Shown here: piece by piece, positions 7,413-20,283 of the stretch
How positions within the stretch are numbered: position 1 is the first letter of the stretch
How the letters are laid out: each line of letters opens with the position of its first letter
Assembly: GCF_000420485.1 (NCBI RefSeq)
Contig: NZ_ATVA01000013.1
Location: 1-64,000 of the forward strand
Direction of reading: 5' to 3'
DNA length: 64,000 nt
From: Paucidesulfovibrio longus DSM 6739
GTDB lineage: Bacteria > Desulfobacterota > Desulfovibrionia > Desulfovibrionales > Desulfovibrionaceae
Made by a program: the position numbers and the translations under genes
Notes under the pieces: generated by a model
What the model saw: the letters and a program-made list of their open reading frames with translations, nothing else
What the model was told of the DNA's origin: nothing
The model's database searches: none

Positions 7413-9122
7413 TCAGCGTCTTCGATCCTGGGCTTCAAGGATTTTCCGGCACTCGGACAAATAGGGCTGGGCCTGCGGATATTCGGCCACGCATTCCAGT
7501 TGGGGAAGCGCTTCGCGCACCCTGCCGAGATTCATGAGCCCGATTCCGAGACAGAGCCGAAGGTTGGGATCATCCGGAAACGCGCTCAGCCCACGCGAGA
7601 GCATCTGAACGGCCTCCTCTGTTCGGGCGTTTCGGTTGAGCAGCATCCCCAGGCCGAGAAAAGCCTTGTTGTCCGGCGCATGGGCCAAGGCGCGCCGATA
7701 CAGTTTTTCGGCCACTGGATCCCGCTGCTCAGGGGCATATTGGGAAGCATAATCGCCCTGATCGAATGTCATGCCGAGTCTTGCGAAGAAATCCGCGAAT
7801 TCCGCAGAGAGGTGCGGTGCGTCTGCTGTTTCCAGCGTGTCGACAAACCCCGGAAGCGCGTCGTGATAGCCTTGTTTGAGCGATTTTCCCCAGGCATGGA
7901 CCTGTTCGAACTCCAGTTCCGGATCCATGTCGAGCCAAAGCAGATCCTCTTCGCGATTCATCCAGACTTCATCCGAGATTCCGAAGCGCTGGCGAGCCTG
8001 CTCGTACAGCTCCGTCCCCGGCAGGACGGTGAGCACATGAAACAGCGTCACGAGCGGTCGTATTTCAGTCAGCAATTGTGCGCTTTCCCGTATCGATTCG
8101 GCGGTTTCGCCGGGATTCCCGTAAATGATATACGCTCGCGCCACCATCCCGTATCGGGTGGTCAAGTCGAAGGCCCGCCGAATCTGCGCATTGTCGGTTT
8201 TCTTGCGCAGCCTTTCGCGAACGGCAGGCGAACCGCTCTCCACGCCGTAACTGATCTGGACGCACCCTGCGGACCGCATGGCCTCGAGAATTTCCTCATC
8301 GACCCGGTCCACGCGGGAAATGGCCTGCCATGCCGCCCCTGGAACCCGTTCCCGCAGAAGTCGACAGAATTCGAGCACATACTCGCGCCGAAGGGTGAAC
8401 GTATCGTCCGAAACGTAGAAAAACCCGACTCCTCGCGCCGCAAGCCTTTGCACCTGCCGCGCCAGGTATTCGGGGGAATGGAACCGCACCTTCGCCCCCC
8501 AGAACCTGGGAGAACCGCAAAAGGTGCATTTGCCGGGACAACCGCGCGACAGAATCACATGCTGGAACGTGAAATATTTGGAAGGATCAGGAAGTTCGTC
8601 CAGATTTTCAATCAGCGCGGCGCAATCATTTTCCCGCACGCCCTCCCCTTCACGCCAGGAAAGGCCGGAAACAGTAGAAAGAGGCGCGCCGCACTCCAAA
8701 GCATCCAGAAATGCCGGGAATGCCCGTTCTCCTTCTCCACGTATAATGAAATCAACATATTCGAAATTTTCTAGAAAAAATCTAGAAAGAAAAGTCGCGC
8801 CGATTCCACCGAATACGACTCGGACGTCAGGCAGAATCCGTTTGGCAGCCTTGGCCGCATCCAGCGCGCCCCAACGGTTGGCCGCGAACACGGAGACGGC
8901 GAGAACGTCCGGGGCGATCTCGCAGAGTTCCGCTTCCATGATGTCGGGTTTGCCGCGTAGGGAATGCCAATTCGCAACAACGACGTCGTGCCCCGACTCG
9001 ATGAGCGCGGCAGCGAGGTAATACAGCCCGATGGGCATGGCGGCTACGTTTTCCGCCTCGGTCCGATCATGCAGGAAGTAGGGATAGACCAGCAGTATCT
9101 TCATGGCTTTGGAACATGTCAC
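7413..9122 (-). CDS. Cobalamin-binding radical SAM protein with C-terminal TPRs
   Basis: A 569-residue protein. Residues about 7-140 are a B12-binding Rossmann-like domain (KILLVYPYF; DVLAVSVFAANR; VVFGGIGAT). The radical SAM core carries the 4Fe-4S motif CPGKCTFC (195-202) and spans to about 420 (VDRVDEEILEAMRSAGC, YGVESGSP, YIIYGNPGET). The last ~100 residues hold tetratricopeptide repeats. The GTG start at 9122 has AGGAGG six bases upstream; a downstream ATG at 9104 lacks one. B12-type radical SAM proteins methylate or rearrange varied substrates, and the target here is unknown. The domain that usually binds the B12 lower ligand, DxHxxG, is not evident, so cobalamin binding is inferred from fold only. 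Confidence 0.88.
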   Translation of the reverse strand: MTCSKAMKILLVYPYFLHDRTEAENVAAMPIGLYYLAAALIESGHDVVVANWHSLRGKPDIMEAELCEIAPDVLAVSVFAANRWGALDAAKAAKRILPDVRVVFGGIGATFLSRFFLENFEYVDFIIRGEGERAFPAFLDALECGAPLSTVSGLSWREGEGVRENDCAALIENLDELPDPSKYFTFQHVILSRGCPGKCTFCGSPRFWGAKVRFHSPEYLARQVQRLAARGVGFFYVSDDTFTLRREYVLEFCRLLRERVPGAAWQAISRVDRVDEEILEAMRSAGCVQISYGVESGSPAVRERLRKKTDNAQIRRAFDLTTRYGMVARAYIIYGNPGETAESIRESAQLLTEIRPLVTLFHVLTVLPGTELYEQARQRFGISDEVWMNREEDLLWLDMDPELEFEQVHAWGKSLKQGYHDALPGFVDTLETADAPHLSAEFADFFARLGMTFDQGDYASQYAPEQRDPVAEKLYRRALAHAPDNKAFLGLGMLLNRNARTEEAVQMLSRGLSAFPDDPNLRLCLGIGLMNLGRVREALPQLECVAEYPQAQPYLSECRKILEAQDRRR

Positions 9123-9487: not shown

Positions 9488-9955
9488 CTATTTTCCGCCT
9501 GCGGGTTTGGGAGCAGGCTTGGCAGCCCCTTTTGAAGCCGCGTCATTGGTCTGAGCGGGTTTGTCCTTCGCAGGCGTGCTCTTTTCTCCGGCAACAGCGG
9601 CAGGCTTCTCCTTGGCCACGGAGGTTTCCGCAGCAGGAACGGAGCCAACGGCAACGGGGGTACTGTCGCAACCCTCGGCCTTCTTGGGTTCGGGTTCCTT
9701 GTCCGAAATGACCAGGGGCTCGCCTTCGTCCTCGTACGCCAGCCAGGACAATTCCAGCGAGAATTTTTCCTTGTTTTTCTTTTGCTTGGCGGAAACCTCG
9801 ATTTCAACATTTTCCGGCGGAGTCAGCGTAAGGAACTCCTCCCCTCTGCGGACAACGATGCGCCCCTCCCGAAAGCCTTTCACCAGGGCTTCAAGATAAC
9901 CAAGGGCATCTTCGTAAGCCATCACCTGTTTGACTTCGATTTTGTTCTTATCCAT
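9488..9955 (-). CDS. Amphi-Trp domain protein with long Ala/Pro/Lys-rich tail (GAK system)
   Basis: A 155-residue protein starting at ATG 9955 behind GGAGG (5-base spacing). Residues about 1-75 are an amphi-Trp domain: VMAYEDALGYLEALVKGFREGRIVV, the strand EVSAKQKKNKEKFSLELSW with the conserved Trp, then YE. Amphi-Trp domains (TIGR04354) are small proteins named for an amphipathic pattern and a near-invariant tryptophan; their function is undetermined. From about 80 on the chain is low-complexity (Ala, Lys, Pro, Glu, Thr) and ends PAPKPAGGK, probably disordered. Such a tail is not present in the other amphi-Trp protein of the operon. It lies 39 bases after the CofD-like gene. Confidence 0.85.
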   Translation of the reverse strand: MDKNKIEVKQVMAYEDALGYLEALVKGFREGRIVVRRGEEFLTLTPPENVEIEVSAKQKKNKEKFSLELSWLAYEDEGEPLVISDKEPEPKKAEGCDSTPVAVGSVPAAETSVAKEKPAAVAGEKSTPAKDKPAQTNDAASKGAAKPAPKPAGGK

Positions 9956-9994
9956 GAGTCCTCCAAAGTAAAAGGTGGAATCCAAATGAAAATG

Positions 9995-11206
9995 TCATGT
10001 CAAAGACATCAACGCCGGGACAAGTTTTTCCGGGTCGATTCCGGCTGATCCGTCCCCCTGGACCAACGGTAAGTCGATGACCTCCACGCCAAGAGCCAAA
10101 ATCCGCTTTTTTTTCAGCCCGCCGGGGTAGTTCGCATTGCGTGAATCGACCAGCACCGCGTTAAGCAATGACCCCACGGGTGCGTCCGCTCCCGCATCGC
10201 GCCGCAACAGCGCCAGCAGCCTCTCCACGAGGTCGGCAACGCTCAAGCCCACGCATTCGGGATCAGGCAGAGTGTTCGGGACATAGACCTTGGGACAGGC
10301 ATTGGCGGCCACAGCCGACCCAACCCCCGCGACGAGCAGGTTGGCAAGCACGCTTGTGTAAAAACTACCAATGGGGAAACAGATCAGGTCAGCCTCGCCG
10401 ATCAGGCGTTTCATTTTGCGCCTGACCGTGGCCTGCACTGGCGTGGGATCGTCGAGGCTCTGCACGGTCCAGATGTCCGCGATGCTTTTCTGCAACGGCG
10501 CGGATTCCTTGCCCGTGATCATGTGTTGGCCCACGATTTCCTTGCCGTCTGCGAGGCGAACGGCAAGGTGCAGATCCTTGTTGACCACGGGGCGAACCAT
10601 GCCGAGTACCCGCACCAGCTTGGAAAAGATGAATATCACCGGATCAATATGCCGTCGGTTGGCCAGGAAGCCCGCCGTGAGCACCAGATTGCCGAGGCTG
10701 GCTCCGCGCAGATCAAAATCGTCGGGCATGCGTTCGATGAATTCGCGGAAATGGTTCCGGATGATCTTGCGCATGGGGTCATGCACGCAGGCGATCAGCC
10801 GATGCCTGCCGCGCGCCAACGACTCGAGCTCCGCGATCAGTTGCTCCCGCGTATCCGTCTTGGAAAGTCGGTGCGCGAAGAGATTGAATATTTCCGGGTT
10901 GCCTTGCAGGCTGGTGTCGGCCAGGGCCATGAGCCTGTTGCGGATGTCTCCCACGGCGGGCATTGCGAATGCCTTTCGCAAAACGGCCGAGCTGCCGCCG
11001 GAATCGAACGGCGTGATCACGTGCACGGAATTGTGCGTGTACCGCACCAATTCGGAGCAGCAGTCCCGAAGGGCCGTTCCTCCGCTGAAAAAAAGAACAC
11101 GGGGACCAAGCGCCGGGGTGTGCCTGTAGCGCTCCAGCTTGAGCCTGTCCGGCACCCGGACTTCACGCGAGACGCGTATGCGCAGCGGTTCCGAACGTGC
11201 GCTCAC
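9995..11206 (-). CDS. GAK system CofD-like protein
   Basis: A 403-residue member of the CofD/YvcK fold family (TIGR04357 type). The GTG start at 11206 overlaps the HprK stop by four bases (GTGA) and has GGAGG nearby. Shared family motifs are SGGTAL (41-46), TPFDSGGSS (65-73), GDIRNR (87-92), GASLGNLVLTAGF in the middle, and the loop GSFYTSVLANLLVAG, which corresponds to GSLYTSxxPNLLV of YvcK. CofD itself is the phospholactate transferase of F420 synthesis, while YvcK controls envelope and carbon metabolism without a known reaction. No other F420 gene is in the window, so it probably has its own role, perhaps nucleotide-sugar or nucleotidyl binding. Confidence 0.9.
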   Translation of the reverse strand: MSARSEPLRIRVSREVRVPDRLKLERYRHTPALGPRVLFFSGGTALRDCCSELVRYTHNSVHVITPFDSGGSSAVLRKAFAMPAVGDIRNRLMALADTSLQGNPEIFNLFAHRLSKTDTREQLIAELESLARGRHRLIACVHDPMRKIIRNHFREFIERMPDDFDLRGASLGNLVLTAGFLANRRHIDPVIFIFSKLVRVLGMVRPVVNKDLHLAVRLADGKEIVGQHMITGKESAPLQKSIADIWTVQSLDDPTPVQATVRRKMKRLIGEADLICFPIGSFYTSVLANLLVAGVGSAVAANACPKVYVPNTLPDPECVGLSVADLVERLLALLRRDAGADAPVGSLLNAVLVDSRNANYPGGLKKKRILALGVEVIDLPLVQGDGSAGIDPEKLVPALMSLT

Positions 11207-12303
11207 GCGCCCTCCTCCCCAATCATGCCGCCTTTCAGGAAATCGATGCAGGCGTCCGCCGCAACGTCGAAATCCACGCCGCCGGAAATCTCGAAGAGGG
11301 GACAACGAGACAACAGCTCCACGTATTGCTCAACGCCGGGATCCGCTTGCGCGGCCAAGTCCGCCGGGAGATAAAACAAGCCCGTGGGCTTCATGAACGC
11401 CGCCAGGAGATCGACCCTTTCACCGGGGTCAACGCGCCTGACTACTACGGCTCCGCGGTCGCGCTTCCAGTTGAGGATGACCAGTCCGTGGAGCGGAGCT
11501 TCGAGGACAAAGCGTCCAGGACCATAGCATACGTCGATCAGTCCGTCGTATTTGCGTTCCAGGTTCCAGAGTTCGTCCGCAGGCAGGGCCATGAACCTCA
11601 CCCTGTCTTCGTCGGAAACGATGCGGGCGAGATCGGGGTTGTGCAGCGCGGTGCCGGGATTGATGCGGGGCTGCTTGGCCACGCCGAACATCATGGGACC
11701 GTCCTCTCCCGAAGATATCATCACCCTGTCGTTGCTCACGAACGTGGTTCCCCGGCTCATGAGATGCAGCGCGAGCGTGGACTTGCCCATGCCGGAAAAG
11801 CCAGCCAGGGCCAGCCCCCGGCCATTCAGGCAGACGCCCGCGGCGTGGCCAAGAAGACATCCCTGGTTCAGTTTGCGCTCTATGAAGCGATTGTTGATGA
11901 AGTTGACGACCTGATTGTCGTTTTCCAGGCAAGGGCCCACGGCGAGGTGGTGCCCGTCGCCGAAGATGAAGACCATGCCCGTGAGGCGCTTGCGGACCAC
12001 CCGCCCATCAACGAGATCAACATACTCTTCCTTGACTTTGCTCTTGCCCGGATCGGGATCCTTGATCGCATAGGTCAATCCGAGATCGGGGGCCGAGGTA
12101 TCGTGCGTCGTGACGACGATCTGCGGCCTTTGGCTTTCCGTCAGGAATTCCTTGAAATAACCACAGAGCGAATCATGGAGAGCCTTCAGGTTGGAGCGGA
12201 CTTCAATGACGTCCTCTCCGAATCGAAGCCAAAGAGAGTGCGTCGTCGGAAATTCGCTCTGAAAATGCTCTGCAAGAGCCTTGCACGTGGGAGTTTTGTT
12301 CAT
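11203..12303 (-). CDS. GAK system HprK-related kinase B
   Basis: A 366-residue protein related to HPr kinase/phosphorylase (TIGR04355 type). The C-terminal half carries the P-loop GFSGMGKST (168-176), preceded by the HPr-kinase-like GCLLGHAAGV (His153) and followed by a Ser-Asn-Asp block (VSNDRVMI, 189-196) where HprK has its catalytic Asp pair. Classical HprK phosphorylates Ser46 of HPr. No HPr or other PTS gene lies here, so the substrate is likely a protein of this operon or a small molecule. It overlaps the ATP-grasp gene upstream (ATGA, 12300-12303) and the CofD-like gene downstream (GTGA), showing tight translational coupling of the three enzymes. Confidence 0.92.
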   Translation of the reverse strand: MNKTPTCKALAEHFQSEFPTTHSLWLRFGEDVIEVRSNLKALHDSLCGYFKEFLTESQRPQIVVTTHDTSAPDLGLTYAIKDPDPGKSKVKEEYVDLVDGRVVRKRLTGMVFIFGDGHHLAVGPCLENDNQVVNFINNRFIERKLNQGCLLGHAAGVCLNGRGLALAGFSGMGKSTLALHLMSRGTTFVSNDRVMISSGEDGPMMFGVAKQPRINPGTALHNPDLARIVSDEDRVRFMALPADELWNLERKYDGLIDVCYGPGRFVLEAPLHGLVILNWKRDRGAVVVRRVDPGERVDLLAAFMKPTGLFYLPADLAAQADPGVEQYVELLSRCPLFEISGGVDFDVAADACIDFLKGGMIGEEGA

Positions 12304-13172
12304 TTGTCCACCTTCTTGAGCACATATTCCGCATAGAGTCGTGCCGCGTCAATGTTTCTGGCCTCCAGCAGCCCGCGAAATCCGCCGAACGCCGACACCT
12401 CGAAGACAAACGGCCCTTCGTCCGTGAGCGCCACGTCCACGCAGGTGAAATCGAGATCAAAAAGGGACTGGGCTTTGCGCGCCAGTTCGATGACTTCCGC
12501 AGGCGGGTCGAACGGCGCGTATTTCCCTCCGGATTCCGTGGTGGTGTTCCAGGCGCCGTTGGTCTTGCAGCGCGCATAGGTCGTCAGGTATTCACCGCCC
12601 AGGAAAGCCAGCCCCAGATCGCTGTCCTGGAGGTCGATGGTTTTCTGGATGTACATGATCGGATTCTCGGCCTTGTATTCCTCAACGGCCTTGCGGGCTT
12701 CCGGACCGTCGCGAAGCACGAACATGCCGCGCGCCTTGGAGGTGTAGAGCGGCTTGAATACGGCCTCGCCATATTCGCGCACCGCGTCCAAAGCGTGGTC
12801 AATGCTTTCTGTAATCGTCGTGGGCGGCATCGGGATTCCCGCAAGCTGCAACGTGATCGTGCAGGAAAGGCGGTCCAGAACCCTGAGGATGCTCAACGGC
12901 GAGGAAAAGACCGGCACGCCCCTTTCGGCCACATAGCGGAGGATTTCCAAGCGATCAAGAAGGTCCGGCGAATACCTGGATCCTATTTTCTTGATTATCA
13001 ATGCGTCGAGATCCATGAGATTTACGCCGTTGCAGAGAGCCCGACCGGACGGCAGGTCCAGGCGCACTTCATCGATGGCAATAAGCAGACGCTCGCCAGC
13101 GATTTCTCCAACCGTGTCGGCAAGACGCTCCGTGGACCAGCCACCTTTCGTACCAACTACTCCGATTTTCAC
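12300..13172 (-). CDS. GAK system ATP-grasp enzyme
   Basis: A 290-residue RimK-like ATP-grasp protein (TIGR04356 type). Expected features are a nucleotide-binding lysine in AVFKPLYTSKARGM (Lys140), a glycine-rich flexible loop, the acidic pair in FTCVDVALTDEG (about 242-253) and the terminal metal site PFVFEVSAFGGFRG. In that last motif the usual metal-binding Asn after the Glu is Ser, which is unusual for the fold. ATP-grasp enzymes join a carboxylate to an amine or thiol through an acyl-phosphate. Here the acceptor is unknown; RimK relatives add amino acids to protein C-termini, so the small amphi-Trp or XXXCH proteins are candidates. It is followed by the kinase gene with a 4-base overlap. 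Confidence 0.9.
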   Translation of the reverse strand: MKIGVVGTKGGWSTERLADTVGEIAGERLLIAIDEVRLDLPSGRALCNGVNLMDLDALIIKKIGSRYSPDLLDRLEILRYVAERGVPVFSSPLSILRVLDRLSCTITLQLAGIPMPPTTITESIDHALDAVREYGEAVFKPLYTSKARGMFVLRDGPEARKAVEEYKAENPIMYIQKTIDLQDSDLGLAFLGGEYLTTYARCKTNGAWNTTTESGGKYAPFDPPAEVIELARKAQSLFDLDFTCVDVALTDEGPFVFEVSAFGGFRGLLEARNIDAARLYAEYVLKKVDK

Positions 13173-13192: not shown

Positions 13193-14848
13193 CTAGTAGT
13201 AGAGAACCTGTGCCGGAAACTTGAAACTCCGCCAGTCGTTGCCTGCGAAATTGCTGATGCGTTCCAGCAGGAACAAGGCCCGGTTGAACATTTCCCTGGC
13301 GAATCGATGGTTCAGCTCGAACCGCGTGGATGTGTAAAAGGAACGCGCCAAGGCAAAGGCCATGCGGGCCTCAAACGTCTCGTCACCCTGCGACTGGCTG
13401 AATTCCTTTGCGAATCGGTGGAATTCGCCGATGATTCCGTTCAATCGCGCGCGCATGGCGTCCTGGAATATCGGCATCCGGAAATTGGAAACAAGAAACA
13501 CGGAAACATCCTGGACGTAGTCGTAATCGCGCGAGCGGTAGAGATCGATGAAATGGATCTGCTGGCCCGCATGGTCGTAGACCACGTTGTTGACGTTGAA
13601 GTCTCCGTGAATGAACACCGTGAACGGCGCTTCCAGTTCGGCTTCCAGCTCGGCGCAACGCGAAAGCAGCTCGTTCGAGCCGGAAATGCGCGAATCGCCG
13701 AGCCGCCTTGATTCGCGACGAAATTCCGGATGGACCTGCAGCACGTCCTCCAGGCGGGAATTGAGCTGCCGGATGAAATCGACCTTAACGGGTTCGCGGC
13801 GCATGGTCGTTTCCCAGACATTTCGGACGGTCTGCTCGAAAACGAATACCGCGTTGGAGAGGAAATCCTCGTCCGACCCCAGCACGACCTCGTCGAGCGT
13901 GCAGCCCGGCAGAAACTCGACCAGCAAGGAAGCCCGGCTTCCGTCCTCATGGTATCCGTAGACGTCCGCCACAAGGCCGGGGAAGATCGCCTTCCAGCGC
14001 TCTATGTTATCGCGTTCCTTGCGGATCTTCTCCAAGCCGCCTTCCTTGTAGATTCCGCCGTGCACATCCATCCCGTCGGTGTCGCCGCCATGCTCCCTGC
14101 GCTCCACCCGTCCGATGCGGCAACCCGACCTCGTTCCCCAGATGGACTGGAAGTCGATGTCGCTGAAGGATTCGGAAAATCCGGACTTGGAAAGGGTCTG
14201 TTGCAGGGAGTCGAACTGCTCGATCTTGATGCGCTCTCCGAGAATGGAAAAGATCAGGGCTTCCCCGATGTTCAGGAGACTGTCGCCGATGCGCTCCAGA
14301 TAGCGGAAGATGAAGAGCACCGTGACCAGGCTCTGAACGTTTCGGCCTGAACCGAGATCCACCAGCAGCCTGTCGAAGTTCTCCTTGTACATCCGGTCCA
14401 GCTCGTACTCGGCTTTGCAGATAGCCAGGGCCGCGGACATGTCCTCCTTGCGGAAGGCGTCCAGAATCCCGGCAAGGCTGGCGCTGATCAGGGCATAGAG
14501 TTCTTCGCTCGGATACTCATCCAGTTGGCGGGTGTCCTGGAGATACCCCACCTGCCGGACGATGTTCACGCAGTAGTCCGCGATGCGCTCCAGATTGACG
14601 CACATGACCTGCATGGACCGAATTTTGTTCACCTGGCGCGAGTCGAGCTGCTTGTCGGAATGAATCCGGGAGTAGCACTTGTTTTCGATGATGGTCTTGA
14701 GATTGTCGACATAGTCGTCACGGGAGACGATGCGATTGTAGAGCTGCCTCCCCGGAGCCGATACAAAGTCCGCGGTGGCGCGCACCTGCTTCTCCACTTC
14801 CAGAACGATGAACCTGAAATTCTCGTCCAGTCCTTCAAAGGCGATCAT
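13193..14848 (-). CDS. PhoU domain fused to an aminoglycoside-phosphotransferase-like kinase (GAK operon)
   Basis: A 551-residue two-domain protein. Residues 1-220 are a PhoU-type helical bundle with both metal-site repeats (NLERIADYCVNI at 85-96; RYLERIGDSLLNIGEALIF at 182-200). A linker of about 50 residues follows. Residues about 265-550 are a phosphotransferase of the APH/choline-kinase type, with the catalytic loop HGDFNVNN (414-421) and the metal Asp in HFIDLYRS (Asp435). The N-lobe lysine is not obvious (IYKEGGLEKIRKE near 267-280 is the best candidate). The fusion suggests control of a small-molecule or protein kinase by a PhoU sensor. It starts 3 bases after the amphi-Trp stop, so it is part of the operon. 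Confidence 0.85.
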   Translation of the reverse strand: MIAFEGLDENFRFIVLEVEKQVRATADFVSAPGRQLYNRIVSRDDYVDNLKTIIENKCYSRIHSDKQLDSRQVNKIRSMQVMCVNLERIADYCVNIVRQVGYLQDTRQLDEYPSEELYALISASLAGILDAFRKEDMSAALAICKAEYELDRMYKENFDRLLVDLGSGRNVQSLVTVLFIFRYLERIGDSLLNIGEALIFSILGERIKIEQFDSLQQTLSKSGFSESFSDIDFQSIWGTRSGCRIGRVERREHGGDTDGMDVHGGIYKEGGLEKIRKERDNIERWKAIFPGLVADVYGYHEDGSRASLLVEFLPGCTLDEVVLGSDEDFLSNAVFVFEQTVRNVWETTMRREPVKVDFIRQLNSRLEDVLQVHPEFRRESRRLGDSRISGSNELLSRCAELEAELEAPFTVFIHGDFNVNNVVYDHAGQQIHFIDLYRSRDYDYVQDVSVFLVSNFRMPIFQDAMRARLNGIIGEFHRFAKEFSQSQGDETFEARMAFALARSFYTSTRFELNHRFAREMFNRALFLLERISNFAGNDWRSFKFPAQVLYY

Positions 14849-14851
14849 GGC

Positions 14852-15124
14852 TTAGGATTCGACCTTGATGTCTTTGACGGACGGACCGCTGTCCAGGCCG
14901 TATTCCTTCCAGCCCACCTTGATGCTGATCTTGCTCTCGCCGCCCTTTTTCTTGGCTTTGACCTCGAAGTTCAAAAGTCCGCAGGGGGTCATGACGATTT
15001 CGTCCGCATCCGTGGAAAGGACGATGCGCCCCTTTTCAAATCCGTCCACCAGGGCGTCCAGAAAATTGCGGATGGAATTGTTGTCCTGAATGGATTCAAA
15101 CATGAATTTCTTGTCGCTGGCCAT
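14852..15124 (-). CDS. Amphi-Trp domain protein, short form (GAK system)
   Basis: A 90-residue protein that is essentially one amphi-Trp domain: NSIRNFLDALVDGFEKGRIVL, then FEVKAKKKGGESKISIKVGW with the conserved Trp, then KEYGLD. Its layout matches the domain at 9488-9955 but without the disordered tail. ATG 15124 (MASDKKF) is preferred because AGGGG lies 8 bases before it; the ATG two codons upstream at 15130 would be only 2 bases away. It sits between the PHP-like gene and the PhoU-kinase gene with a 3-base gap to the latter. Its role may be as the small substrate or effector of the neighbouring enzymes, which is inference. Confidence 0.88.
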   Translation of the reverse strand: MASDKKFMFESIQDNNSIRNFLDALVDGFEKGRIVLSTDADEIVMTPCGLLNFEVKAKKKGGESKISIKVGWKEYGLDSGPSVKDIKVES

Positions 15125-15148
15125 GTGCATTGCCCCTTTGCCGCTCGC

Positions 15149-16312
15149 CTAGCCAGCGAGCCTTGCTTTGTAGTCTGCGATGGCGGATCGCCTGCTGATT
15201 CCAGTCATGATGAGCTGCTTGCGGATGGCGAGATCGTCCCAGGCGGGCTGTATGCCGATTTCCCGCCCGGCCTTGTCCGCATCCTGCTGCTCCGGCAGCT
15301 TCGTTTTTTCTCCCATGTGGCAATCGTCGCCCATGAGCACGAGAATGGGTTTGCGGGATGCGCCCCGCCTGGCGTTCTTGTCGTTGACCACGGAGATGAG
15401 GAATTCCGTATAGCGCTGCGATTGGGGATTCCAGACCTCGTACCCGTCCACGTCGTAATCGGCCAGGAGGATGGGCCAGAACTGCTCGGGGTGCGGGATG
15501 ACGATTCCCCCGCCCAGACCGCGCGCCTCCTCGATGATCTCCGTGGCGCGATAGAAGAACTTCAGGGAAAATCCTTGCTTGACCAGTTGCTTCACCGCTT
15601 TGAGAAAGGCCTGGATCCTGTTCACCGGGGCTTCGCCCAGCTCCGGGCGCATCGAGTCGAAGTAGTTGCGGAGCATCTTGTTTTTGATGGAAATCCGCGG
15701 CAGGTCGGGCCATTGCTCGTCCAGCAACTTCGCAATCTTGCGGACATGGGCCTGAACGAACTCCACGAGATCGGTTTCCGCTCCGGTGGCGCGCATGGCT
15801 GCGCCGATGCGATCCCGGTCCGGACCGATGATCGTATCCATGAACTCGAACAGCTGAGAGGATCGATATTTGTAGGTGTGCGCAAGCATGGAGCGCAGCA
15901 CCGGGGCATCCTGCACGCGGTCCGCCTCGAAATGCAGAAGAAGCTGCACCTTCTGGTTGAATCCGCTGGCGTAGCAGTCCACTTCCACCCCTGCATATCC
16001 CCCGAAGCTCATCAGCTCGTTGTGCTGGGTTGGAATCAAGAGCTCCTCGGATTTGTTCGGGAACATCTTGTCGATGCGTTTGCGGATCAAATCCAGGGGC
16101 ACGAATTCGGGGTGCCAATGCACGCCGAGCACGGCCTCCTGGCGAGGCTGCTGCGCCGGCTCAAGAACCTGCTCCACCTGCCAGGGAGCCATTTCCACGG
16201 AGACCACCTGGGAGAATCTGACGCGGTCAGCATCCGTTATTTCCGGATCAACGGCTTCCATATCGAATTCCGGACAATCGCGAGATCCCGGTTTCACGAG
16301 CTTCATGAACAT
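15149..16312 (-). CDS. PHP-like putative metallohydrolase of the GAK operon
   Basis: A 387-residue protein starting at ATG 16312 behind GGAG. I recognise no named family, but the order of metal-ligand-like motifs resembles the PHP phosphoesterase fold: HWH (65-67), GVEVDCY (Glu110), LGGGIVIPHPEQF (His274), GYEVWNP (about 290-296) and LVLMGDDCHMG (Asp329/330, His332), like the GSDSH end of PHP enzymes. An inserted helical region (about 130-250) separates the N- and C-terminal motif groups. A hydrolase acting on a phosphorylated product would complement the kinases in the operon. It lies 10 bases downstream of the XXXCH gene and 24 bases before amphi-Trp. Assignment to PHP is by motif order only. 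Confidence 0.7.
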   Translation of the reverse strand: MFMKLVKPGSRDCPEFDMEAVDPEITDADRVRFSQVVSVEMAPWQVEQVLEPAQQPRQEAVLGVHWHPEFVPLDLIRKRIDKMFPNKSEELLIPTQHNELMSFGGYAGVEVDCYASGFNQKVQLLLHFEADRVQDAPVLRSMLAHTYKYRSSQLFEFMDTIIGPDRDRIGAAMRATGAETDLVEFVQAHVRKIAKLLDEQWPDLPRISIKNKMLRNYFDSMRPELGEAPVNRIQAFLKAVKQLVKQGFSLKFFYRATEIIEEARGLGGGIVIPHPEQFWPILLADYDVDGYEVWNPQSQRYTEFLISVVNDKNARRGASRKPILVLMGDDCHMGEKTKLPEQQDADKAGREIGIQPAWDDLAIRKQLIMTGISRRSAIADYKARLAG

Positions 16313-16322
16313 CGACTCCGAT

Positions 16323-16856
16323 TCATTTGAAACGATTGTGGCAATGGCTCTTGATTCGATCGAGTTCGTTGCAGGCCGTCTGCGTCGCGGCGAGATCACC
16401 GGATTCGTACGCGTCCGCAAAGGATTGCGTCGCCGCCGCATACTCTTCGTAGTGGGCGTCGCCGAAGCCGGGAAAACCGATCATCAGTTCGGAGTCCCGG
16501 ACAAAGGACCGGACCGCCTCGTCCGGAGGCATGACGCCTTCGCCAAGCGATGTGAAAATCAGCTTGAAGCTGTTTTTCATTCTCTTTTTAAGGGATTTGT
16601 ATTTCAAAGGTTCTTCCGCATCACCAGTCTCGGAGACGGCGCATTCCTCGCTCTTGCACTTGATCTTGATCTTGAAGAGCAGCCTGCCGAATTCCTTTTT
16701 CACGGAAATCCCTATCTTGCTGAAATCCTCGACTCCCTGAAGAGCCTCCAGACCGGATTCCACCGCTCCCTTCTCCATCACATCGGCGAGTCGCCGGAAC
16801 ATGTCCGGGAGCTTGTCCGCGGAGAGATACGATTCCATCTTGATGCTGTTGCCCAT
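16323..16856 (-). CDS. GAK system XXXCH protein
   Basis: A 177-residue protein and first gene of the operon (start ATG 16856, GAGG five bases upstream). The family (TIGR04358 type) is named for its C-terminal Cys-His; here the end reads RIKSHCHNRFK. The N-terminal third resembles an amphi-Trp domain (LPDMFRRLADVMEKGAVE, then FSKIGISVKKEFGRLLFKIKIKCK), suggesting a shared origin, but it lacks the Trp. A helical C-terminal half follows, with a Cys-x-x-x-x repeat pattern. The Cys-His end could bind metal or haem, or be a modification site. None of this is tested. Confidence 0.85.
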   Translation of the reverse strand: MGNSIKMESYLSADKLPDMFRRLADVMEKGAVESGLEALQGVEDFSKIGISVKKEFGRLLFKIKIKCKSEECAVSETGDAEEPLKYKSLKKRMKNSFKLIFTSLGEGVMPPDEAVRSFVRDSELMIGFPGFGDAHYEEYAAATQSFADAYESGDLAATQTACNELDRIKSHCHNRFK

Positions 16857-17022: not shown

Positions 17023-18111
17023 TCAGGAAGAATACGCGAGCGGAACGAGTTCTCCCCGCAGCACCCGCCAGGCTCCGTCGGCCATGACGCGCATTTCGTC
17101 CGTCTCCAGGGCGAAACATGGCCCCAAATGGGCAAGCCTGCCGGATACGGCTTCCACGAGCCGTACGCTGCGCGAAAGTCCACCCGTGAGCACCACGGCG
17201 TCGACGCGCGCGCCGGGTTCATAAAGAAGCGCCGGAGCGAGCGATGAAATCTGCTTGGAAATGTTGTAAGCCAGGGCGTCGAAAACAAGCGCCGCGCGCT
17301 CGTCGCCATTGTCGGCCATCTTCTGGACCTGGCGAAGATCGTTTGTTCCGAGGTGGGCGAAAAGCCCTCCCCGCGTCAAGGCGAGACGCTGCAACTCCTG
17401 GACGCTGTGCTTCTCCCGCAGGACAAGCCCCAGCGCCGTTATCAACGGCAGACTGCCGACCCGCTCCGGACTGAACGGCCCTTCGCCGTCCAGGGCGTTG
17501 ATGACGTCCACCACTCTGCCCTGGTCGTGCGCGCCGATGGAGATGCCACCGCCCATGTGGGCCACGAGGAATCTTCCCTGTTCATACGAAATGCCCATTT
17601 GCCCGGCCACGCGCCGCGCCGCGCCGCGCTGGCTGAGCGCATGAAAAACGCTCCGCCGCTGCACGTCCGGCAATCCCGTCAGTCTCGCCAGATCGCGCAT
17701 TTCGTCAGTTACCACAGGATCGACGACCAAGGCCGAGGCATTGTCCCGCGCGGCGTATTCGACGGCAAGCAGGGCGCCGAGGTTGCTGGCGTGCTCGCCG
17801 TACCGGGCCGAACGCAGATCATCGAGCATGGCCTCGTTCACGGCGTAAACTCCGCCGGGGATCGGCTTCAACAGTCCGCCCCGTCCGACCACGGCGTCAA
17901 GCCGCGGCACCACGCCGTCCGGAAAGCCCTTGCGCAGGGCGGCGCGCACGGTATCTCTGCGCATGGCAAGCTGCCCCAGCACGGTCGGATGCGCCTCGAC
18001 GTCCTCCTTGGAATGCCGGACCTCCACCTCAAGAACGCTTTCCTCGTTGCGAAAAAGGGCCACCTTGGTGGAAGTGGAGCCGGGATTGACCGTCAGGACA
18101 TGATGGATCAC
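17023..18111 (-). CDS. buk: Butyrate kinase (acetate/butyrate kinase family)
   Basis: A 362-residue member of the acetokinase family. It has the N-terminal phosphate-binding VNPGSTSTKVALF, the VVGRGGLL segment, HMGGGISIGAHDQGRVVDVINALDGEGPFSPERVG, and the C-terminal VVLTGGLSRS. The length and GEGPFSPER block match butyrate kinase rather than acetate kinase. It converts acyl-phosphate plus ADP to the acid plus ATP. It overlaps ptb by four bases, the classical ptb-buk arrangement. Branched-chain acids (isobutyrate, isovalerate) are equally likely substrates given the ilvN neighbour. Confidence 0.93.
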   Translation of the reverse strand: MIHHVLTVNPGSTSTKVALFRNEESVLEVEVRHSKEDVEAHPTVLGQLAMRRDTVRAALRKGFPDGVVPRLDAVVGRGGLLKPIPGGVYAVNEAMLDDLRSARYGEHASNLGALLAVEYAARDNASALVVDPVVTDEMRDLARLTGLPDVQRRSVFHALSQRGAARRVAGQMGISYEQGRFLVAHMGGGISIGAHDQGRVVDVINALDGEGPFSPERVGSLPLITALGLVLREKHSVQELQRLALTRGGLFAHLGTNDLRQVQKMADNGDERAALVFDALAYNISKQISSLAPALLYEPGARVDAVVLTGGLSRSVRLVEAVSGRLAHLGPCFALETDEMRVMADGAWRVLRGELVPLAYSS

Positions 18112-19049
18112 TGCTTATCTCCGACATCGGCGCTGGAATCCGCGGCGAGAAAGGCGGCCAGGGCAATGGAATGGAATTTGGATTCGGCGGAATCGCTTCT
18201 GGATGGGACGACCACGGGAACGCGGCTGCCCACGACAACGCTGGCCAGCGTCGATCCGTGCAGGATGCCCAGCGCCTTGTAGAGCATGTTGCCGCTTTCG
18301 ATGTCCGGGGTGCAGAGGATGTCGGCATGACCGGCAACAGGATGATTCACCCCTTTCGTGACCGCGGCCTGAGGTGAAATAGCCAGATCCAGCGCCAGGG
18401 GACCGTGGACGAGACATCGGCCGAACTGGCCCTGAGCCGCCATCTTGCTGATCACGTCCGCGTCGAGCGTTGCAGGCATTGCAGGATAATTGACTTTTTC
18501 CGTAGCCGCGAGCATGGCGGCACGCGGACAGTCCATGCCCAGACGGCGGGCCACGTTCAGCGCGTTGCGCAGGATGTCGGCTTTGCGTTGCAGATTGGGA
18601 CGAATGTTCACGCCCGCGTCCGTGAGCAGCATCAGGCGCCCCCCGGTCGGAGCATCGAACACCGTGACATGGCTGAGGATGCCGCTGACGGGCGGCACGC
18701 CGGTCTCCTTGTTCAGCACGGCCTTGAGCACGACCGCAGTGCTGATGAGTCCCTTCATGATGATGGAGACAGCGCCTTCGCGGTACATGCGCACCGCCCT
18801 GTTCACCGCGGCGGCTGCATCCGGCTCGTGAACCGACTCAAACCCGGAAATGTCCAGTCCATGTTCGTCCGCCACCTGCGCGGCACGCTGCATGTCTCCT
18901 ATGAGCACAGGGTCGGCGAGTCCCTGCGAGTGGGCCTCGATTCCGCCGCGAAGTATGAATTCATCGGCGCAGGGAGCTATGGCCACGCGGGGACGCCGTC
19001 CGCTGCGCAGTACCGCCTCCACTAATTCCGCAAGAGAGGTTAGGGGCAT
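18108..19049 (-). CDS. ptb: Phosphate butyryltransferase (phosphate acyltransferase family)
   Basis: A 313-residue phosphotransacylase-type protein. It shows RPRVAIAPCADEF, IIMKGLISTAVVLKAVLN, the family block PTGGRLMLLTDAGVNIRPNL split across about 143-162, and SGNMLYKALGILHGSTLA near the end. It swaps CoA for phosphate on butyryl-type CoA esters; buk then makes ATP. It overlaps buk and follows ilvN by 12 bases. The three-gene set suggests fermentation or ATP recovery from branched-chain 2-oxo acids, or the reverse, acid activation. Confidence 0.93.
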   Translation of the reverse strand: MPLTSLAELVEAVLRSGRRPRVAIAPCADEFILRGGIEAHSQGLADPVLIGDMQRAAQVADEHGLDISGFESVHEPDAAAAVNRAVRMYREGAVSIIMKGLISTAVVLKAVLNKETGVPPVSGILSHVTVFDAPTGGRLMLLTDAGVNIRPNLQRKADILRNALNVARRLGMDCPRAAMLAATEKVNYPAMPATLDADVISKMAAQGQFGRCLVHGPLALDLAISPQAAVTKGVNHPVAGHADILCTPDIESGNMLYKALGILHGSTLASVVVGSRVPVVVPSRSDSAESKFHSIALAAFLAADSSADVGDKQ

Positions 19050-19061
19050 CTCTCCTGCCGC

Positions 19062-19541
19062 CTACTCGTCGCCGCGTTTGAGCGCGATGGTTCCGGTTCG
19101 GCACATGCTCAATATTCCGTAAGGCTTGAGCATCTTGATCAAACCATCCACGCGGGCTTCGTCCCCGGTCAGCTCGACCGTGATGCTGCTCTGGCCCATG
19201 CCGACCACGTCGGCCCGGAAAACTTCGAAGACCTGCATGATCTGCGCGGTGTCTTCCGGCTTGAGGCCGACCTTGATCAAGGCGAGTTCGCGGTCCACGA
19301 ACTCTTTGCGCGACAGGTCGTCCACCTGGATCACGAAATCAAGGGCTGCCATTTGTTCGGTGATGTCGCTGACCTGCGCATCGCCTGCTTCCAGCCGGAT
19401 GACCATGCGTGAAATATCCGGATTTTCGGTCTCGCCGCAGGCAATGGATTTGATGTTCAGCTTTGCCTCGCCGAAATGGCGGGCCATGGCTGCGAGTACG
19501 CCGGGCTCGTTGCGCACCAGTGCGGAAATGGTATGTTTCAA
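19062..19541 (-). CDS. ilvN: Acetolactate synthase small subunit-like ACT protein
   Basis: A 159-residue protein that starts at TTG 19541 (GGAGG four bases upstream), giving (M)KHTISALVRNEPGVLAAMARHF. An ACT domain covers residues 1-75 and the IlvH-like C-terminal domain follows (KPEDTAQIMQVFEVFRADVVGMGQSSITVELTG). It is the regulatory subunit that gives valine feedback to the catalytic IlvB. No ilvB is next to it, which is unusual; the partner must be elsewhere, or this protein now works with another enzyme. It is the first gene of ilvN-ptb-buk. Confidence 0.88.
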   Translation of the reverse strand: MKHTISALVRNEPGVLAAMARHFGEAKLNIKSIACGETENPDISRMVIRLEAGDAQVSDITEQMAALDFVIQVDDLSRKEFVDRELALIKVGLKPEDTAQIMQVFEVFRADVVGMGQSSITVELTGDEARVDGLIKMLKPYGILSMCRTGTIALKRGDE

Positions 19542-19731
19542 GATTCCTCCCGTGGATTGCGTTCCAGCATCAATATATCCGAGGCGGCCGCTTCGCTCAA
19601 GGCGGACGACACCGAGACGCGACAACGGCGCAACCTTGCGAAAAATGCGAACGAACGCTTCCGCAGCGGATATTCGGGCCTGTTGACCCGTTCCTTGTTG
19701 ACGGCTATCCCAGAAAAAAAAGGATCTTTCA

Positions 19732-20283
19732 ATGTTTGGGAATCTCTTGAAGAAAATCACCACGCCTCCGCCCTTTCAGGTCGGCAAGCGCAATCTCGAG
19801 CGGGCCTGGCGGGCGAGCATGAACAACGACATGAAAATGGCCCGCCAATACAACGCCAAGGCGGCCCAGGCATTTCGGGAAATGCTCGAGGCCGATCTCG
19901 CCAAGGGGAAGCGCACGTTCCCGCCGCGCCTCGCAGCGGCAGGCATCGCCATCCTCCGCGACGGCGACCCGGAAACCGCCTCGCGACTGCTGGCGCAGGC
20001 CCTTGAGCGCCAGGAGACTCTTTTTCAGGCGTATTCCTGGGCCGGGCTCGCTTTCGGCCAACTCGGCGATGCGGAAAACGCCTTGCGCTACTGGAATCTG
20101 TTCCAGGGGGTGCAGGCCGGGCAGGCCGTGCTGAACAAAATCATCATGGAGCAGAAGATCGGTCTTGAAAACGGGCAAATCGAACTCAAAAGCGCTTGCG
20201 CCGAGGTGGAGCAGGGACTTCTCAAGCAGGACAAGGCCGATTTCCGTGAAGGGAAAAGCTTCTGGCTCCTGGAGCGTCTCTAA
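19732..20283 (+). CDS. TPR-like protein of unknown function
   Basis: A 183-residue soluble protein with AAGGAT seven bases before ATG 19732. It is almost all alpha-helical and contains TPR-type repeats: RAWRASMNNDMKMARQYNAKAAQAFREML, PETASRLLAQALERQETLFQAYSWAGLAFGQLGDAENALRYWNLF, and a charged helical end. TPR proteins are usually scaffolds. It is divergent from ilvN and followed by a bidirectional terminator, so it is probably a single-gene unit. No partner is evident. Confidence 0.75.
   Translation: MFGNLLKKITTPPPFQVGKRNLERAWRASMNNDMKMARQYNAKAAQAFREMLEADLAKGKRTFPPRLAAAGIAILRDGDPETASRLLAQALERQETLFQAYSWAGLAFGQLGDAENALRYWNLFQGVQAGQAVLNKIIMEQKIGLENGQIELKSACAEVEQGLLKQDKADFREGKSFWLLERL

Follow-up and report, generated by a model that had tools for sequence, protein, structure and literature searches.

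The window analysed here is the whole stretch of 64,000 nucleotides from Paucidesulfovibrio longus DSM 6739, and a run of genes on its reverse strand carries the GAK cassette (Table 1). The gene order is the XXXCH protein, an unnamed gene (U430), an amphi-Trp protein, the PhoU-APH fusion that is our subject, the ATP-grasp enzyme, HprK-related kinase B (HprK-B), the CofD-like protein and another amphi-Trp protein. Only 3 bases separate the stop of the first amphi-Trp gene from the start of the fusion, and the end of the fusion lies 20 bases before the GTG of the ATP-grasp gene. Six matches to the NCBIfam GAK set (TIGR04354-TIGR04358) surround the fusion, which places it inside the GAK operon as the initial annotation had said. 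The fusion itself matches six NCBIfam families and none of them is a GAK model, in agreement with the remark that it is not a described member of the set. It shares an operon and a nearly complete co-occurrence with the NCBIfam GAK genes, but unlike them neither the fusion nor U430 matches any GAK model.

Table 1. Features of the GAK locus in the window, with residue numbers of the fusion protein where they apply.
Feature	Position	Strand	Basis or remark
GAK XXXCH protein	16323..16856	-	TIGR04358
Unnamed gene U430, read as a PHP-fold metallophosphoesterase	15149..16312	-	387 aa from the ATG used; AlphaFold2 and VIA
Core amphi-Trp protein with S-x-Q-D motif	14852..15130	-	TIGR04354
PhoU-APH fusion gene	13193..14848	-	551 aa, ATG start
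PhoU six-helix bundle, residues 1-205	14234..14848	-	VIA Z 25.1 to 4q25, rmsd 1.9, 203 residues
PhoU motif D44-xxx-D48	14705..14719	-	D44 in 57/59, D48 in 56/59
PhoU motif E87-xxx-D91	14576..14590	-	59/59
PhoU motif E147-xxx-D151	14396..14410	-	59/59
PhoU motif E185-xxx-D189	14282..14296	-	59/59
Kinase domain, residues ~229-551	13196..14164	-	VIA Z 20.9 to 2pyw; boundary from AlphaFold2 model
IWGTRSGCRIG, residues 236-246, start of kinase N-lobe	14111..14143	-	conserved segment
Catalytic loop HGDFNVNN, residues 414-421	13586..13609	-	H, G, D, N418, N421 in 59/59
GAK ATP-grasp enzyme	12300..13172	-	TIGR04356, 456 bits
HprK-related kinase B (HprK_rel_B)	11203..12303	-	TIGR04355, 544 bits
GAK CofD-like protein (CofD_rel_GAK), start codon uncertain	9995..11305	-	TIGR04357, 539 bits
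Second amphi-Trp protein, without S-x-Q-D motif	9488..9985	-	TIGR04354

The reading frame at 13193-14848 is confirmed to encode a helical bundle of the PhoU type that is fused to a metabolite-type kinase. Conservation was judged on 59 aligned sequences, the window protein and 58 homologues, and the same number of sequences went into an AlphaFold2 model with a mean pLDDT of 87.9 and a pTM of 0.64. At this pTM the folds of the parts can be trusted, while the placement of the two halves relative to each other cannot. When the model was searched with Foldseek, APH(3')-Ia came out at the top and PhoU proteins appeared from rank 19. The structure prediction that had been proposed for both halves thus returned a PhoU bundle and a kinase fold, each matched to known structures.

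The N-terminal half had been described as a PhoU domain with both metal-site repeats, and the Pfam match, the fold and the motifs all agree on this. Pfam PhoU (PF01895) matches with an E-value of 9.3e-25 in two stretches that correspond to the two repeats, and VIA-align of residues 1-205 gives Z-scores of 25.1 to 4q25, 24.8 to 1t72, 24.5 to 2i0m and 23.4 to 1sum. The fusion therefore has in common with these proteins the six-helix bundle, the two repeats and the four E/D-xxx-D motifs, all of which are present in the window protein. Residues 1-209 have 21 invariant columns in the alignment of 59, and six of the eight motif carboxylates are among them (hypergeometric p about 1e-5). PhoU proteins of the 1sum kind bind iron clusters, and the bundle in this lineage probably binds metal. 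However, the fusion differs from PhoU in being joined to a kinase, in having GAK genes alongside and in losing the motifs in its distant members. The NCBIfam model phoU_full (TIGR02135) covers residues 7-206 with 87 bits, below its cut-off of 130 bits, and the N-terminal half is thus better called a PhoU-fold domain than a PhoU orthologue.

The kinase half carries the HGDFNVNN loop and a following Asp (D435), just as the initial annotation had described for an APH-type kinase. Pfam finds APH (PF01636) at residues 399-461 with an E-value of 1.8e-8 and EcKL at residues 337-460 with 1.3e-7. VIA-align matches residues ~205-551 to kinases, and the closest structures are methylthioribose (MTR) kinase 2pyw (Z 20.9, rmsd 4.3 over 306 residues) and PsiK (20.5), followed by maltokinase (19.4), a putative fructosamine-3-kinase (18.8), APH(3')-Ia (18.5; 4feu, rmsd 3.6 over 247) and the lexapeptide enzyme LxmKY (18.1). 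Rows less than one Z unit apart were treated as ties, and given these ties no single substrate class is singled out. None of the 59 sequences departs from K268, E278, H414, G415, D416, N418, N421 or D435. We take K268 and E278 to be the Lys and Glu of the ATP site, HGDxxxxN to be the catalytic loop and D435 the second Asp, according to their roles in the family. The segment IWGTRSGCRIG is a possible nucleotide loop, and seven Arg residues (R365, R438, R457, R466, R495, R502 and R509) are also invariant in the 59. The fusion therefore shares with the kinases of the MTR kinase, APH, FN3K and PsiK fold (PF01636) both the fold, at Z of 17-21, and the K, E, HGDxxxxN and second Asp. It differs from them by an identity of 9-20% in the rows shown and by the PhoU bundle at its N-terminus.

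The two halves behave differently when more distant members are compared. For this we used a set of ten sequences picked for diversity, reaching down to 30% identity and including three from Rhodobacterales (the set shares three members with the 59). K268, E278, H414, D416, N421 and D435 are identical in all ten, and the PhoU motifs are less well kept. Both first-lobe pairs are broken in L118 and L120, while in L117 the first pair is broken and the second reads Asp-xxx-Glu. None of the three Rhodobacterales sequences (L129-L131) has an intact carboxylate pair in an alignment at about 30% identity; L130 keeps only D48, D151 and D189, one Asp from each of three pairs. Since the pairs are lost in all three while the kinase residues are kept, metal sensing would not be a property of the whole family. 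The initial annotation had suggested a phosphate- or metal-sensing switch on the kinase, and this suggestion is weakened, the motifs being retained in close homologues. The loss of the motifs, seen in an alignment at about 30% identity, is the chief finding against metal sensing as a general role, and only certain lineages could have a switch operated by metal or phosphate.

The fusion is a core and constant gene of the GAK system. We searched the genome itself and 58 relatives at E-values up to 1e-10, and 32 of these 59 genomes match the fusion. One of them (G006) matches by the PhoU part only, which leaves 31 with the full length. The same 31 carry the GAK ATP-grasp gene above its cut-off (31/31, the sets being compared by eye), and both genes are absent from the two further genomes of the genus. 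Across the phylum we sampled 297 genomes. Of these, 22 have the fusion, and an ATP-grasp gene above cut-off is present in 20 of the 22 and absent from the 275 genomes that lack the fusion (Fisher p about 4e-29, with kinship among the genomes ignored). Every genome with an ATP-grasp gene above cut-off thus also has the fusion (31/31 and 20/20), an observation that goes beyond the initial annotation. A partial ATP-grasp below the cut-off is found without the fusion in G135, which is 62% complete, and the fusion is present without an ATP-grasp above cut-off in G276 and G298. The two genes adjoin in 17 of the 22 genomes. They stand apart in G270 and G334, where HprK-B follows the fusion instead, and they lie on different contigs in G099.

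A closer look at the neighbourhood comes from the best 80 of 217 relatives in a scan of named genomes, all chosen for holding the fusion. Going by their titles, nearly all of the 80 come from Desulfovibrio-like or other deltaproteobacterial sources; two metagenome-assembled genomes bear the labels Zixibacteriota (L067) and Eisenbacteria (L085). The profiles came from these 80 loci and nine more, and short contigs depress the counts. In the 80 loci the profiles find amphi-Trp in 76, U430 in 76, ATP-grasp in 74, HprK-B in 71, XXXCH in 55, CofD in 53 and the second amphi-Trp in 41, so that U430 accompanies the fusion more often than XXXCH or CofD do. The corresponding tblastn counts are 76, 76, 73, 70, 51, 53 and 58. 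Counting assigned genes only, the fusion has amphi-Trp next to it upstream in 75 of the best 80 loci and ATP-grasp next to it downstream in 72, with L051 scored as having none since its fusion matched in two pieces; amphi-Trp and U430 both lie on the strand of the fusion in 73. The neighbourhood survey that had been suggested therefore finds the homologues together with GAK genes and not mostly away from them.

There are exceptions. U430 is absent from L072, L082, L084 and L088, in the case of L072 and L082 despite about 10 kb of upstream sequence, and amphi-Trp is absent from L055, L088, L108 and L111. In L088 and L120 the fusion stands without any other cassette gene. ATP-grasp and CofD are missing from L115, L117, L119 and L121, but U430, amphi-Trp and the fusion are kept there; three of these genomes (those of L115, L119 and L121) encode an ATP-grasp at another site, and that of L117 (G276) has none above cut-off. 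These loci and the profile counts make U430, amphi-Trp and the fusion the most regular trio. Of the three, amphi-Trp alone has a GAK-related model. Among the 22 commonest clusters of unassigned frames in the best 80 of 217 loci no phosphate-transport gene is conspicuous. Most of these clusters are frames that overlap known genes on either strand, and the remainder are a few widespread families at scattered positions (by reading, for example, an ABC ATPase, a response regulator and a histidine kinase).

The PHP-fold protein U430 is a further point that the initial annotation did not contain. A further in-frame ATG, at 16441, lies upstream of the start used. The window copy matches no Pfam or NCBIfam family, with scattered chance matches in other copies only, and the Pfam PHP profile matches none of 56 members at E-values up to 1. 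A search of PDB sequences gave no match, and the profile search returned two ribosomal proteins at E-values of 0.92 and 3.3. VIA matches the AlphaFold2 model (pLDDT 89.9, pTM 0.86) to 3o0f (Z 17.0), to RNase AM in 9etk (16.2) and 7ug9 (15.8) and to 2yb1 (15.3), then to a DNA polymerase III chimera (11.5), presumably by way of its PHP domain, and to 2anu (9.3), after which the Z-score falls to 4.7 with the first entry outside the PHP-type and polymerase III structures. H65, H67, H97, E110, H127, H274, D330 and H332 are invariant in 56 sequences, and we take this series of HxH, H, E, H, H and DxH to be the metal-ligand pattern of the PHP fold. From the model and these residues our best reading of U430 is a PHP-fold metallophosphoesterase that the profiles do not recognise. 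The protein has in common with the PHP phosphoesterases BAD_1165 (3o0f), RNase AM (9etk) and 2yb1 the fold and the His/Glu/Asp pattern, and unlike them it has an extended helical region, modelled at about 137-265, and no match to Pfam PHP. Given that its closest folds include RNase AM, U430 might act on nucleic acid or nucleotides.

In the phylum sample U430 occurs in 21 of 297 genomes, which are 19 of the 22 with the fusion and 2 of the 275 without it (G275 and G319). The three genomes that have the fusion and no U430 are G352, where the contig ends 470 bases upstream of the fusion, G250, where the contig ends inside the fusion, and G099, which is 67% complete (apparently the genome of L084) and has XXXCH-like pieces at the expected place of U430. 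In G298 the two genes are on separate contigs.

The amphi-Trp copy beside the fusion has a S-x-Q-D motif that could be a phosphorylation site, a contact site or a helix cap. The serine is kept in 78, the Gln in 74 and the Asp in 80 of 81 rows, and these rows were chosen by similarity to the window copy and so are biased towards it. The sequence of L071, an exception on the serine, is not the copy beside the fusion. Of the 53 other amphi-Trp copies at the same loci, 9 have the S, 9 the Q and 11 the D, and all 53 have the Trp. We considered the serine of the core protein (Ser13) as a target of HprK-B. The genome G175, apparently that of L109, has no HprK-B and yet the amphi-Trp of L109 keeps the serine, whereas L082 and L094 have HprK-B and no serine. 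With exceptions in both directions the link is not supported, and a helix cap explains the motif equally well. The divergent amphi-Trp copies of L117 and L118 lack the motif, and the genomes of these two loci, G276 and G298, lack HprK-B. A relationship of amphi-Trp to HPr was also rejected, as judged from the sequence pattern; the PDB search returned two thioredoxin reductases at an E-value of 1.6.

A separate view of the cassette is provided by plasmids. Out of 72,556 plasmid records five have the full-length fusion, at about 30-32% identity, all of them from Rhodobacterales and three from Tritonibacter mobilis, and a sixth record matches by the PhoU part only. All five carry the GAK ATP-grasp gene, adjacent to the fusion in every case. 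The three plasmids that were read share the gene order fusion, ATP-grasp, HprK-B, histidine phosphatase, metallophosphoesterase and amphi-Trp, with a divergent CofD-like gene in two of them. Pfam recognises the PhoU half above cut-off in two of these fusions, and the third scores 18.8 bits where 23.5 are needed. S-x-Q-D is kept in all three amphi-Trp copies. U430 was not found at E-values up to 0.1 in the plasmid stretches examined. Instead of the PHP gene these plasmids carry genes for a histidine phosphatase and a calcineurin-like protein: Pfam PF00300 is found in both histidine phosphatases scanned, and of the three metallophosphoesterases two exceed the cut-off of PF00149 (calcineurin-like) and one narrowly misses it. 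One of the metallophosphoesterases was compared with U430 by BLASTP and is unrelated.

Our preferred reading, which we hold tentatively, is that the fusion is a core GAK kinase with a PhoU docking and regulatory module, opposed by a phosphatase of the cassette and having amphi-Trp as its partner. The fusion would be an ATP-dependent phosphotransferase of the APH/MTR kinase fold that phosphorylates a ligand or partner protein of the cassette, and the PhoU bundle at its N-terminus would serve for docking and regulation. The cassette phosphoesterase, a PHP-fold protein in this phylum and a histidine phosphatase with a calcineurin-like protein in Rhodobacterales, would take off or further process that phosphate. 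The amphi-Trp protein encoded directly before the fusion may be the partner, adjacency by itself not being proof, and in this lineage a metal on the PhoU bundle may gate the kinase. The two folds, the intact catalytic residues, the constant neighbourhood and the PHP fold of U430 were computed directly, as were the different phosphatase genes and the broken PhoU motifs of Rhodobacterales. A kinase that is kept in everything examined, a phosphatase that is usual but varies in fold and PhoU metal motifs that are optional together suggest a working kinase with docking or regulation by PhoU. That the kinase is active, that the bundle regulates it and that kinase and phosphatase act on the same phosphate would follow from this reading, and the two enzymes could also act on different molecules. 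Since a phosphatase-like gene is nearly always nearby, a role in reversible phosphorylation is directly testable.

A close rival, in our view somewhat doubtful, is that the fusion is a biosynthetic kinase in a cassette that makes or modifies a small molecule or peptide, the PhoU bundle being a mere scaffold for oligomerisation. The set of enzymes in that case would be a CofD-like transferase, a RimK/MptN-like ATP-grasp ligase, a kinase of the MTR kinase type and a PHP phosphoesterase. The second-best NCBIfam model for the ATP-grasp enzyme is the tetrahydromethanopterin:glutamate ligase MptN, at 145 bits against a cut-off of 350, the nearest folds of the kinase half include metabolite kinases (MTR kinase, PsiK, maltokinase and FN3K), the PhoU motifs are dispensable, and the seven invariant Arg would suit an anionic substrate. 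However, the presence of HprK-B would point to regulation, and L115, L117, L119 and L121 do without ATP-grasp and CofD at the locus, even if three of these genomes have ATP-grasp elsewhere. That the kinase is switched by a ligand bound to the PhoU sites seems unlikely to us. The carboxylates conserved in the 59 sequences (the two that vary are still kept in 57 and 56) and the fold match to 1sum are what one would expect of such a switch, but the kinase residues persist in the Rhodobacterales proteins without an intact pair and the pairs are also broken in L117, L118 and L120.

Two other explanations are far less probable. The fold and motifs would also fit a second PhoU that works in ordinary control of phosphate transport with the kinase part secondary, which we consider very improbable. 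The genome already has a separate ordinary PhoU, directly after a gene read as pstB from sequence alone (L124:7736-9264), no pst or phoR gene is found among the ten window genes profiled, and no phosphate-transport gene is prominent among the common neighbour clusters. The direct neighbours in nearly all of the best 80 of 217 loci are GAK genes, and conservation is stronger for the kinase residues than for the PhoU motifs. The least credible reading follows the name given in some records and makes the protein a phosphotransferase for aminoglycoside resistance. RefSeq calls the Rhodobacterales fusion 'phosphotransferase' or, in Tritonibacter, 'aminoglycoside phosphotransferase family protein', APH(3')-Ia heads the Foldseek result and the NCBIfam model APH_3p matches residues 292-451. 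With 28.6 bits the APH_3p match falls short of its cut-off of 205, by VIA Z-score the metabolite kinases are no worse a fit, and the GAK context is constant.

Returning to the kinase and phosphatase reading, it can be extended to the cassette as a whole, although we regard the extension as speculative and on balance unlikely. GAK could be a circuit of reversible phosphorylation apart from PTS and Pho, in which the PhoU-carrying kinase and an exchangeable phosphatase control a phosphate on core amphi-Trp, perhaps at the serine of S-x-Q-D, with HprK-B as a second input. The kinase of this circuit would be of metabolite-kinase descent, and the phosphatase would be of the PHP type or of the calcineurin-like and histidine types.

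A literature search, with most subscription papers outside its scope, gave no description of the GAK system or of a PhoU-kinase fusion, and GAK was found only as a set of database family names. One table passage in PMC8879037 describes a protein of phage tail fibres as 'XXXCH domain containing', with no mention of GAK. The main text of two Desulfovibrio mutant-fitness papers (PMC10102598 and PMC4215793) has no PhoU, ATP-grasp, CofD or HPr. The protein combines known folds in a fusion for which we found no description, within a cassette that is known but unexplained.

The fusion is a case of a PhoU bundle that is retained after the loss of its metal motifs, and this bears on the roles of PhoU beyond phosphate transport. 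With a PhoU-linked kinase and a hidden PHP phosphoesterase as constant members, GAK becomes a concrete question of which phosphate is put on and taken off. The finding that the phosphatase gene is swapped in another phylum while the kinase stays sharpens this question for the GAK system.

Genes flanking the GAK cassette around the PhoU-kinase fusion were sought in the loci of the best 80 of 217 relatives, chosen as holding the fusion. The radical SAM gene has a match in only one of these 80 homologous loci and is therefore not a cassette member. On the other flank, matches were found in none of the 80 for the butyrate/acetate-kinase-like gene, in none for the phosphotransacylase-like gene and in one for the ACT-domain-like gene.

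Genes flanking the cassette, and the ordinary PhoU of the same genome (names in -like come from sequence reading)
Feature	Position	Placement
B12-binding radical SAM protein with TPR repeats	7413-9122	downstream of cassette
Butyrate/acetate-kinase-like, phosphotransacylase-like and ACT-domain-like genes	17023-19763	cassette's strand, before cassette
Ordinary PhoU and pstB-like gene	L124:7736-9264	contig C18 of P. longus genome

In Qingshengfaniella alkalisoli a NUDIX hydrolase gene (L130:11523-11981) overlaps the fusion gene's start, and elsewhere an HD-domain phosphohydrolase (L118:6943-8370) precedes amphi-Trp and the fusion. The latter genome carries U430, the predicted PHP-fold metallophosphoesterase, on a different contig, and the HD-domain protein is possibly another phosphatase in its place. 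One genome has in-frame stops in fusion and U430 alike (G103:C113:4300-7453), reflecting either decay or an assembly error.

In a genome with U430 and no fusion (G275, L125:4130-8920), a stand-alone PhoU lies close to U430, and the two are separated by a protein of EAL/GGDEF appearance. In L072 and L082, too, the cassette is followed by EAL-looking proteins; these EAL assignments come from sequence reading. Three genomes have a separate PhoU-type frame no more than about 10 kb from the fusion (L122:221-898, the start of L047, and G033:C13:70899-71438).

P. longus itself encodes an ordinary PhoU of 221 aa directly 3' of the pstB-like gene, and the fusion is therefore an additional PhoU protein.
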